Shown: one piece after another, positions 22,903-54,356 of the stretch
Layout of the letters: each line of letters begins with the position of its first letter
Numbering within the stretch: the first letter of the stretch is position 1
Source: Sphingomonas sp. NFR04
GTDB taxonomy: Bacteria; Pseudomonadota; Alphaproteobacteria; Sphingomonadales; Sphingomonadaceae
Reading direction: 5' to 3'
DNA: 64,000 nt
Assembly (NCBI RefSeq): GCF_900114095.1
Contig: NZ_FORV01000007.1
Coordinates: 62,001-126,000, forward strand
Made by a program: the position numbers and the translations under genes
Notes under the pieces: generated by a model
The model's input: the letters and a program-made list of their open reading frames with translations, nothing else
What the model was told of the DNA's origin: nothing
Databases searched by the model: none

Positions 22903-23964
22903 ATGCGCATCGCGCGTGCCATTCGTTCAGAGATGGAGGGGGATGAAGGCCGGGCGCTCTTCGAGCGGATCGGCGCGTTCCTCCTCGACCAGCGGCTGGC
23001 ACCGACGCCGACCAACTATGCCTTTGTCCACCGGCTGTTCACCGAACCCGACGATGCGCTCGCCCGCGCGGTCGAACTGATCACCGAGCGCGGCGTGCGG
23101 ATCACCCCGCGCGACATCCAGACGCTCACTGCCGATCATGGCCCCGAAGACCCGCAGGACTGCCATATCGACCTCAAGGCGCGCACCGAAGGGCTGGTCG
23201 CGCGCACCCAGATGCAGGTCGAGGGCTTTGCCGACATGGTGACGGCGATGCGCGCCGAAACCGCCGATTTCGGCCGCGACTTGGCGGCGAGCGCCGAGGC
23301 GATGTCCACCGGCAGCGATGCGCCCCAGGCAAGCGACGACGTCGTCCGCATTACCGCCGCGATGCTCGACCGCATCCGCGTCGCCGAGGAGAAACTGGAG
23401 AGCACGACACGCGAGGCGAACGACCTGCGCGAGAAGCTGGAAGAAGCGCGCGACAATGCGCGCCGAGATCCGCTGACACAGTTCCCCAACCGCCGCGCCT
23501 TCGAGGAAGCCTTCGCCGCGCAGGAAGCGACCGGTGGCAGCATGTGCATCGCGGTTTGCGACATCGATCACTTCAAGTCGGTGAACGACCGCTTCGGCCA
23601 TGCGGTGGGGGATCGCGTATTGCGGGTGATCGCCGATGCGCTGAGCCTGTGCTGCCGCGGGCACCTGGTCACCCGCTATGGCGGCGAGGAGTTCGCGATC
23701 CTCTTCACCAACGTGCCGTTGGAGCAGGCGCGCGCCGTACTCGAACATGCACGCGGCACGGTACAGGCCAAGCGCTACAAGCTGCGCGACAACGACGCGC
23801 CTTTGGGAGAAATCACCTTCTCGGCCGGACTGACTCCCGTGGAGTTGGGTGAGATGCATCAAACCGCGTTCCACCGCGCCGACCGCCTGCTGTATCTCGC
23901 AAAGCATGAGGGCCGCAATCAGGTGAAGATTGGCAGCGCCAGCTATAGCGAATTTCGCCGCTGA
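22903..23964 (+). CDS. GGDEF domain diguanylate cyclase
   Basis: A 353-residue cytoplasmic protein that should make cyclic di-GMP. Residues 1-90 form an uncharacterised helical N-terminal domain (GAFLLDQRLAPTPTNYAFVH), residues ~155-187 a coiled coil (EKLESTTREANDLREKLEEA), and 188-345 the GGDEF domain with RRDPLTQFPNRRAF and the active-site motif GGEEF at 260-264. The inhibitory I-site position (RxxD just before the active site) reads C-R-G-H, so feedback inhibition through that site is probably lost. No transmembrane segment is seen. It has its own promoter (22732-22762) and is followed by the small-protein unit. Confidence 0.93.
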   Translation: MRIARAIRSEMEGDEGRALFERIGAFLLDQRLAPTPTNYAFVHRLFTEPDDALARAVELITERGVRITPRDIQTLTADHGPEDPQDCHIDLKARTEGLVARTQMQVEGFADMVTAMRAETADFGRDLAASAEAMSTGSDAPQASDDVVRITAAMLDRIRVAEEKLESTTREANDLREKLEEARDNARRDPLTQFPNRRAFEEAFAAQEATGGSMCIAVCDIDHFKSVNDRFGHAVGDRVLRVIADALSLCCRGHLVTRYGGEEFAILFTNVPLEQARAVLEHARGTVQAKRYKLRDNDAPLGEITFSAGLTPVELGEMHQTAFHRADRLLYLAKHEGRNQVKIGSASYSEFRR

Positions 23965-24056
23965 ATGGCGGGATTTACCACCTCAATTCGCAAATCACAC
24001 CGGTGCACTGAGGCCCATTTCCAAGATATCTCGATATGACAGCCACTTAGCGAAGT

Positions 24057-24072
24057 TGGCACGCTCCCTGCA
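24057..24072 (+). promoter_or_regulatory. Sigma-54 (-24/-12) type promoter
   Basis: TGGCACGCTCCCTGCA matches the sigma-54 consensus TGGCACG-N4-TTGCW at all but one defined position, with the invariant GG and GC exactly 10 bases apart. It lies 58 bp upstream of the first small ORF (24131), and a short palindrome ATATCTCGATAT sits about 20 bp upstream. rpoN itself is in this window at 52848-54356. Confidence 0.6.
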
Positions 24073-24130
24073 AAACTGCTGGCATCGGCCGCCGGATGGT
24101 CCGCCAGCCGAACCACAGGGAGTAACTACC

Positions 24131-24238
24131 ATGACCGCTCGTCTCGTTTCGCTGCACCAGACCGTTGCCGTCAGCGCCGCCGTCCTGCTCACCGCCGCGC
24201 TCGTCCTGTTCTCCACCCCCGTGATCCCGGTCGCATGA
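24131..24238 (+). CDS. Small membrane protein, 35 residues, unknown function
   Basis: This short gene starts at ATG 24131 with a strong GGGAG eight bases upstream. The product starts MTARLVSLHQTVAVSAAV and continues as one hydrophobic helix (about residues 12-32), ending PVIPVA. It is expected to be a single-pass inner-membrane peptide. It is the first of two small genes between a sigma-54-like promoter and an intrinsic terminator, which supports its being real. I do not recognise a family. Confidence 0.65.
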   Translation: MTARLVSLHQTVAVSAAVLLTAALVLFSTPVIPVA

Positions 24239-24267
24239 TCGCGCTTGCACCCATGGAGAAGATCAGC

Positions 24268-24363
24268 ATGTTCCGCAGCTTTCTCATCGGCGTCGCATCG
24301 TTCGGCATCACCAGCGTGATGATCCTCGGTAGCGGCCTGCAGGGCTCCAGCCTCCTCGGCTGA
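24268..24363 (+). CDS. Small membrane protein, 31 residues, unknown function
   Basis: Starts at ATG 24268 with GGAG nine bases upstream; in-frame ATGs at 24235 (overlapping the first small gene by ATGA) and 24253 are alternatives. The product MFRSFLIGVASFGITSVMIL is a single hydrophobic helix with a Gly/Ser-rich C-terminus (GSGLQGSSLLG). It is 29 bp after the first small gene and 7 bp before a terminator hairpin, so the two are very likely cotranscribed. No family is recognised. Confidence 0.6.
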   Translation: MFRSFLIGVASFGITSVMILGSGLQGSSLLG

Positions 24364-24370
24364 CCCTGCC

Positions 24371-24391
24371 GGCCGCCCCGGCGGCCCTTTT
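24371..24391 (+). terminator. Intrinsic terminator of the small-protein unit
   Basis: GGCCGC (24371-24376) and GCGGCC (24381-24386) pair around CCCG, followed by CTTTT. It closes the unit that begins at the sigma-54-like promoter. Confidence 0.7.
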
Positions 24392-52847: not shown

Positions 52848-54356
52848 TCAACCCGCTCCTTCGAGTGCCTTCTGGCGCCGGCGTTGCACCGAGCTGCCAA
52901 TGCCCATCGCCTCGCGATATTTCGCGACCGTGCGCCGGGCGATATCGAAGCCCTTCGCATTGAGCATTTCCACGAGCGTATCGTCCGAAAGAATTTTCTT
53001 CGGGTCCTCGGCAGCGATCAGCGTTTTGATCGCGCTCTTCACCGCCTCCGCCGACACCGCCTCGCCGCCATCCGCCGACTGGATCGCGCTGGTGAAGAAA
53101 TATTTCAGTTCGAAGAGGCCGCGCGCGCAGCTGAGATATTTGTTGCTGGTGACCCGGCTGACCGTCGATTCGTGCATCTCGATCGCGTCGGCCACCTGGC
53201 GCAGGGTCAGTGGGCGGAGATGCGCGACGCCTTTCAGGAAGAAGCCTTCCTGCTGCTTCACGATCTCGCTCGCCACCTTGATGATCGTGCGCTGGCGCTG
53301 ATCGAGCGCCTTGACCAGCCAATTGGCGCTGGCGAGCATGTCGGTGAGCCAAGCCTTGCTCGCCTTGTCCTGCTTGCCCCCCGAGACCTCGGCATAATAG
53401 GCCCGGTTGACCAGCAGCCGCGGCAGCGTCGCCGCGTTGATCTCCACCGCCCAGCCAGTGCCGCGCCGCGCGACGAAGATGTCGGGGGTCACCGCCGGCA
53501 CCGGATCGCCGCCATAGCGGCAGCCGGGCTTGGGATCGTAGTTGCGCAGCTCGCGGATCATGTCGGCGAGATCCTCGTCGTCGACATTGCAGATCCGCCG
53601 CAGCCGGGCGAGATCGCCGCGCGCGACCAGTTCGAGATTGTCGATCAGCCGCGCCATGCGCGGATCGTAGCGATCCGCCTCCTTGGCCTGGAGCGCGAGG
53701 CATTCGGCGAGGTCGCGCGCGCCGACGCCGGTGGGATCGAAGGTCTGGATCACTGCCAGCACCCCCTCGACCCGCGCGAGCGGCACGCCCAGCCGCTCGG
53801 CGATCTCGCGCAGCGGCACGGTAAGGTAGCCGCATTCGTCGATCTGGTCGATCAGATGCTGGGCGATGAACAGGTCGGGGCCCGAGACGCTCGAGCCCGC
53901 CTGGGCGAGCAGATGGTCGGCAAGGCTGAGGTCGCCGCTCCCGAGGCTGTCGAGATCGGAGCCCTCCTCCGATCCGCCGCCGCCGGCGCCGGTCATCCCG
54001 AGCCCGCCGTCGAGCCCGCCGATCGAGTCGCTGGCCGAATCATGGTGGAAGGCTTCGGTGGCGAGATCGACGTCGAGCGCCGCCTCCCCGCTCGCCTCGC
54101 CGCCGCCGAGGATCAGCTCGCTCGCATCGGCCGGGCCGTCGCGCGGCTCGAAATCGTCAGCGCTGTCGGCAGGCTCCGGCGGGCCGCCGTCGTCGCTGCC
54201 CTGCGCGTCGAGCAGCGGGTTGCGCTCGACTTCCTCGGCGATGAAGGTCTCGATCTCGAGGTTGGACAGCGCCAGCAGCTTGATCGCCTGCTGGAGCTGC
54301 GGCGTCATCACCAGCGATTGCGACTGGCGCAGATCGAGGCGAGGCGCGAGACTCAT
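52848..54356 (-). CDS. rpoN: RNA polymerase sigma-54 factor
   Basis: A 502-residue sigma-54. Region I (residues 1-50) is Gln/Leu-rich (LRQSQSLVMTPQLQQAIKLL). Region II (~51-140) is a long acidic, Gly-rich linker. Region III includes the core-binding and HTH parts (LRQVADAIEMHESTVSRVTS), and the RpoN box is ARRTVAKYREAM near the C-terminus. It directs transcription from -24/-12 promoters with an enhancer-binding ATPase. It is 5 bp after lptB and 2 bp before the EEP gene. A candidate target promoter lies at 24057-24072. Confidence 0.98.
   Translation of the reverse strand: MSLAPRLDLRQSQSLVMTPQLQQAIKLLALSNLEIETFIAEEVERNPLLDAQGSDDGGPPEPADSADDFEPRDGPADASELILGGGEASGEAALDVDLATEAFHHDSASDSIGGLDGGLGMTGAGGGGSEEGSDLDSLGSGDLSLADHLLAQAGSSVSGPDLFIAQHLIDQIDECGYLTVPLREIAERLGVPLARVEGVLAVIQTFDPTGVGARDLAECLALQAKEADRYDPRMARLIDNLELVARGDLARLRRICNVDDEDLADMIRELRNYDPKPGCRYGGDPVPAVTPDIFVARRGTGWAVEINAATLPRLLVNRAYYAEVSGGKQDKASKAWLTDMLASANWLVKALDQRQRTIIKVASEIVKQQEGFFLKGVAHLRPLTLRQVADAIEMHESTVSRVTSNKYLSCARGLFELKYFFTSAIQSADGGEAVSAEAVKSAIKTLIAAEDPKKILSDDTLVEMLNAKGFDIARRTVAKYREAMGIGSSVQRRRQKALEGAG

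Follow-up and report, generated by a model that had tools for sequence, protein, structure and literature searches.

The locus described here raises the question of why two very small, predicted membrane proteins should stand behind a sigma-54-type promoter of their own, and which activator would fire it. It lies in a contiguous stretch of 64,000 nucleotides from the genome of Sphingomonas sp. NFR04, to which we refer as the window. The original prediction regarded sigma-54 control of a dedicated pair of membrane microproteins as unusual; the promoter and the pair are both supported, although together they have the look of a PspF-regulon satellite and not of an isolated oddity. We consider it likely that it is a satellite operon of this phage-shock regulon, comparable in that respect to pspG of E. 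coli, with microproteins that are unrelated to PspG. The evidence to be drawn from sequence comprises the promoter, the two ORFs, their conservation and the selection acting on them, an enhancer motif shared with psp, and PspC-like neighbours in sister genera; judged from these, the conserved microprotein operon is real and PspF control probable. The features concerned are collected in Table 1.

Table 1. Features of the microprotein unit and its surroundings (positions are those of the window unless a locus is named)
Feature	Position	Strand	Basis or remark
GGDEF gene, upstream neighbour	22903-23964		window
Second enhancer-like site, weaker	23943..23963	+	PWM 6.3 bits at -113
PspF-like enhancer site (candidate) GAATGGCGGGATTTACCACCT	23963..23983	+	psp-derived PWM, 9.5 bits
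-24/-12 promoter element TTGGCACGCTCCCTGC	24056..24071	+	sequence and conservation before ORF1
Leader hairpin	24085..24111	+	between expected transcript start (~24083) and ribosome-binding site
Ribosome-binding site AGGGAG of ORF1	24117..24122	+	sequence
ORF1, 35-aa single-helix microprotein	24131..24238	+	conservation, pN/pS
ORF2, 42 aa from overlap start	24235..24363	+	inner ATG 24268 gives 31 aa
Possible intrinsic terminator	24371..24391	+	hairpin 24371-24386, then CTTTT
rpoN	52875-53354	-	Sigma54_DBD match, E 3e-68
psp leader ORF, 35 aa, single helix	L017:942-1049 (own genome, C14)		between sigma-54 promoter and pspA

The -24/-12 element TTGGCACGCTCCCTGC has the exact GG-N10-GC spacing originally claimed for it. 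Taken alone it is poor evidence for a promoter, because the strict pattern TTGGCACGN5TGC has seven matches in the 4.77-Mb genome as against three for a reversed control. We judge the promoter to be real because the element is conserved across units: TGGCAY-N6-NGC stands 5' of ORF1 in 48 of the 49 units that were opened, and in the sole exception (L042) the element is short by one base. Transcription would presumably start near 24083, as we take it from the usual sigma-54 spacing. The genome contains both rpoN, within the same window about 29 kb from the unit, and pspF.

Both small ORFs are present as first described, with 35 codons for ORF1 and 31 for ORF2 when the latter is read from the inner ATG, and each encodes a single hydrophobic helix, the best 19-residue Kyte-Doolittle means being 2.21 and 1.85 respectively. 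The inner ATG exists, but ORF2 probably begins 33 nucleotides earlier, at an ATGA that overlaps the stop codon of ORF1. Of 36 distinct loci, 29 have an overlap frame that runs without a stop into ORF2, and 26 of these carry ATGA or GTGA where the two ORFs meet; in L033, which has no inner ATG, the overlapping start is the only one left. In 7 of the 36 loci this frame fails to join ORF2, and there the inner ATG must therefore serve. ORF2 is conserved less than ORF1, and went unrecognised in 3 of 40 loci. Pairwise pN/pS of ORF1 is 0.13 among nine close relatives and 0.44 over all 30 loci; the corresponding values of ORF2 are 0.46 and, over 29 loci, 0.64. ORF1 is under purifying selection, and ORF2 more weakly so, among close relatives. 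The invariant residues of ORF1 are M1, S28, P30, P33 and A35 in an alignment of 19 rows, and only M1, P33 and A35 when divergent members are included (20 rows); those of ORF2 are M1, R3, S4, G8, F12, T15, Q25, G26 and S27 in 17 rows, and only M1, R3 and T15 with divergent members (18 rows).

By tblastn, 84 of 295 genomes of the genus match ORF1 at E<=1, and a 19-row ORF1 profile finds 132 of the 295 at E<=0.1 and 87 (counted by hand) at E<=1e-3. The original prediction was to be refuted if neither the ORFs nor the -24/-12 element were conserved in relatives; this last count and that of the promoter elements do not refute it. Promoter, leader, ORF1 and ORF2-like sequence follow one another in a common order in the 30 loci that were fetched, in 29 of which ORF2 could be aligned; the loci are from related species, and all such counts are of non-independent events. 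A family-wide search matches ORF1 in 35 of 397 genomes at E<=0.01, several of the weak matches sitting in long frames and probably being unrelated. The order-wide search, in a sample of 296 genomes whose make-up by other families is not itemised, gives 33 at E<=1e-3, every match falling within the Sphingomonadaceae, the family of the window. The neighbourhood is also retained, with the GGDEF gene upstream in 33 of 33 loci and an SDR gene downstream in 29 of 33. The eight best named relatives of the GGDEF gene, with 54-90% identity, were examined; they come from Sphingomonas pituitosa, S. xinjiangensis and others, together with one Sphingomonadaceae MAG, and in every one a promoter of this type precedes an ORF resembling ORF1. 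The other 72 loci listed are at most 46% identical. In S. pituitosa NBRC 102491 the ORF1 sequence is identical to that of the window. Co-occurrence with pspF is uninformative within the genus, because pspF is in every genome (all 295 have a match at E<=1e-60, and 289 of these exceed the cut-off).

The leader of the window folds no better than its own shuffles (z 0.25). Its hairpin recurs in many relatives, in which the stems are altered yet still paired, and stems of at least six pairs occur in 47% of 47 leaders as against 19% of mononucleotide shuffles; it is not universal. We note that the hairpin has a UGG loop directly 5' of the ribosome-binding site, and that it is found too in L119 and L120, which belong to other genera. 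The sequence CAGGGAG is retained in most of the relatives displayed. The short palindrome noted upstream in the original prediction could mean either this hairpin, which recurs, or a sequence at about 24026-24038, which is absent from the close relative L024. Pairing of CTCCCTG in the promoter with CAGGGAG at the ribosome-binding site was considered and dropped, since it is not conserved in all relatives and the CTCCCTG copy precedes the expected transcript start, and so was a short upstream ORF within the hairpin, the reading frame of which varies among relatives. The intrinsic terminator claimed at the 3' end is plausible but weak: a GC-rich hairpin with TTTT is present, but its folding does not surpass that of shuffled sequences (z -0.41), and it is absent from the list of a terminator scan with a criterion of five T in eight.

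In the psp operon of the same genome pspF is divergent from the promoter TTGGCACGCCTCCTGC, the palindrome TTGGCGAATTTTCCCAA is found some 90 bp 5' of that promoter, and the gene order is a 35-aa single-helix ORF, pspA, pspB and pspC. In psp promoters the distance from the site to the -24 box is in most cases 90 bp, with a range of about 79-103. A PWM built solely from 29 psp-promoter sites, leaving out the psp locus L083, whose region looked displaced, scores highest at -88 to -93, counted from the -24 box, in 28 of the 30 micro-units, distances that are accurate within a few bases since the -24 position was set by a fixed offset where the script missed it; in the other two (L025 and L028) the best site is at about -70 and the second best at about -92. 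The median score is 19.0 bits; 120 control pieces drawn from these loci reach at most 9.7, a value exceeded by 29 of the 30 units. A second site 20-22 bp from the first is common among the units. The exception is the window itself, in which GAATGGCGGGATTTACCACCT, at -93, has the lowest score of the 30 units, its relatives being strong at the equivalent position. Three other places in the 64-kb window reach or exceed this score (11.2, 10.4 and 9.7 bits), and about 1% of 1200 mononucleotide-shuffled upstreams match it (99th percentile 9.4 bits, maximum 17.0). The weaker second site is 20 bp upstream of GAATGGCGGGATTTACCACCT and overlaps the final codons of the GGDEF gene. Because the site in the window is the weakest, the case for an enhancer rests on the relatives, and in some of these ORF1 is identical; the family carries PspF-type enhancer sites, of which the window's own copy is a marginal one. 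The probable enhancer of the window unit lies at 23943-23983, outside the interval (24057-24391) that the original prediction addressed.

Other genera provide a tie to the phage-shock system that is independent of the DNA motif. In L119-L121, where the units have low PWM scores (8.6, 8.4 and 3.9 bits respectively), the next ORF after the ORF1 homologue is PspC-like and 61-62 aa long; the two that were scanned, those of L119 and L120, have Pfam PspC matches with E-values of 5.5e-15 and 5.7e-13. Small leader ORFs are also frequent in psp operons themselves: an automatic search of 30 pspF loci from other species finds a clear leader ORF (35-50 aa) in 20, L061 proceeds directly to pspA without one, and the remaining loci either escaped the promoter pattern or were truncated. 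Comparison of ORF1 with the psp leader ORF by hhalign is at most suggestive of homology (probability 15.7, E 0.0017), and the ORF1 profile did not match the leader ORF of its own genome at E<=0.1. Downstream of pspC in this genome (L017:2494-3852) are four further small ORFs of 109, 88, 92 and 89 aa, similar in appearance, of which just the first has a PspC match, a weak one.

A Pfam scan of ORF1 and ORF2 gave no match and an NCBIfam scan, run with ORF1 and the 31-aa form of ORF2, gave none above cut-off (the best for ORF1 being MIGRI, with 15.5 bits against 28), in agreement with the original statement that no described family was known for either peptide. ORF1 and ORF2 are new protein families; the unit itself would be of a known kind, an orphan PspF target. 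Identity with PspG was rejected given the lengths of 35 and 42 or 31 aa, one helix each, and no PspG among NCBIfam matches at E<=1; identity with PspC was likewise rejected, since neither ORF has a PspC domain match and PspC-like ORFs occur only as neighbours elsewhere. Passages of a Psp survey (PMC9239133) describe pspG as the only known orphan PspF target in E. coli, and the PspG of E. coli and Yersinia as a small integral inner-membrane protein encoded away from psp under PspF and sigma-54, features that resemble those proposed for the unit described here. PspG differs in its length, 80 aa from its coordinates as against the two microproteins, and in having two predicted helices, as stated in part of PMC2763126, as against one in each of them. 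The Sphingomonas psp operon shares with the window unit its enhancer motif, a similar spacing and the promoter type, together with a 35-aa single-helix first gene in the same genome; the window unit, in contrast, is followed by the SDR gene instead of pspA, pspB and pspC. A third point of comparison is E. coli YohP, which according to a portion of PMC12719787 has fewer than 50 aa, a single transmembrane domain, stress induction and a link to phage shock, but triggers phage shock instead of being a PspF target.

The unit could depend on sigma-54 and still answer to another enhancer-binding protein with a PspF-like DNA site, an explanation that draws on the 11 sigma-54 activator domain matches in the genome, at least six of them strong, and on the weakness of the window's own enhancer site. 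We regard it as improbable, given that a motif learned solely from sites beside pspF recovers the pspA enhancer of E. coli (TGTTAGTGTAATTCGCTAACT, 16.5 bits, the next best in 6 kb being 9.1), with a further site 20 bp off at 8.6 bits. In ten loci of the Sphingomonas genome (six sigma-54-like sites and four activator regions) psp alone scores high, with 25.7 bits, and the others reach at most 9.7; the four activator regions (L019-L022) have no strong site, in a scan that left out L009-L012. The PspC-like neighbours in other genera also argue against a different activator. The PWM does miss or underrate a known PspF target, because with 5.9 bits the pspG region of E. coli ranks no higher than fourth within its locus. 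Control by PEP-CTERM/PrsR, the initial idea, was set aside solely on the appearance of the PspF-like site. Yet more remote is the explanation that an RNA, either the leader hairpin or a short transcript, is the functional product and the ORFs are of little importance: the recurrence of the hairpin with altered but paired stems is consistent with it, as is the annotated small RNA pspH that follows pspG in E. coli, and the low pN/pS among close relatives, particularly of ORF1, the fixed residues in both ORFs and the patchy occurrence of the hairpin argue against it.

Granted PspF control, there is the further question of what the peptides do. The main functional rival to protection is a membrane-depressing role like that of YohP, and we think it unlikely, if well short of negligible, that the peptides depress membrane activity in this way or feed back on the Psp sensors. 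YohP provides the precedent of a stress-induced single-helix protein in E. coli, and ORF1 is very short with an invariant C-terminal Ala; the likeness of YohP to ORF1 and ORF2, however, is one of description, and a protective role is our first guess because the known Psp effectors of E. coli, which include PspG, maintain the proton motive force, according to part of PMC2763126.

By analogy, an effector role is the most likely one for both peptides of the proposed PspF satellite operon. The course of events that we infer, from PspF binding and induction through translation and topology to the effector role, would begin with inner-membrane stress and the freeing of PspF from PspA, a release that a section of PMC9239133 treats as established in E. 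coli. PspF would then occupy its sites, which lie some 90-115 bp further up, and act with the sigma-54 form of RNA polymerase to fire the promoter at 24056, giving a leader of about 48 nt followed by the two microproteins, which would probably be translationally coupled. Each would span the membrane with one helix, its N-terminus inside as expected from the positive-inside rule, and the two would act as small envelope-stress effectors alongside PspA, PspB and PspC, as PspG does in E. coli. More tentatively, and with rather less than even confidence, we suggest a sphingomonad microprotein branch of phage shock, a family of single-helix proteins of about 35 aa, all fired by PspF and serving as sensors or effectors at the stressed inner membrane, of which one member would head psp and another the satellite operons, with either ORF2 or a mini-PspC.

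The unit looks like an undescribed arm of the phage-shock membrane-stress response. The searched portions of the open-licence literature on phage shock, PspF, Psp evolution and small proteins contain no description of these microproteins, none of the titles listed for phage shock with Sphingomonas concerns psp genes, and a word search of the main texts of two Psp surveys (PMC9239133, PMC11237479) finds sphingomonads unmentioned. With a conserved operon of two microprotein genes, the Psp response would reach below the usual size range of gene finders, and one could test directly whether peptides of a single helix protect the inner membrane under stress or tune it; the operon would also supply a Psp reporter for a genus of soil and plants.

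The regulon may have further members. The combined pattern of site, 62-86 bp and -24/-12 element is found in 131 of 151 genus genomes, as against 26 of 151 for the reversed control (counted by hand); the third match in the window's own genome, C13:302459, is taken as chance. Among the matches listed, 20 second sites were picked by eye, and their split into five micro-units, seven PspC-like ORFs and eight small, probably exported proteins is therefore a biased count; their PWM scores of 6.1 to 22.9 bits are those of sites preselected by the combined pattern. In L093, L098, L099, L101, L102, L104 and L105 a PspC-like ORF stands alone behind a PspF-like site and a sigma-54-like promoter, the calls for L098 and L099 having been made by eye from partial ORFs, and two of three same-genus PspC-like ORFs scanned are above the Pfam PspC cut-off. 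The probably exported ORFs, of 77-103 aa (L091, L096, L097, L103, L106, L107, L109 and L110), have a common Cys and a C-terminal Thr-Gly-Ser-Arg-like motif containing Trp, and are preceded by a TGGC...CCA site and a TGGCAY-N6-TGC element, between which AAGTCATTGA is often present.
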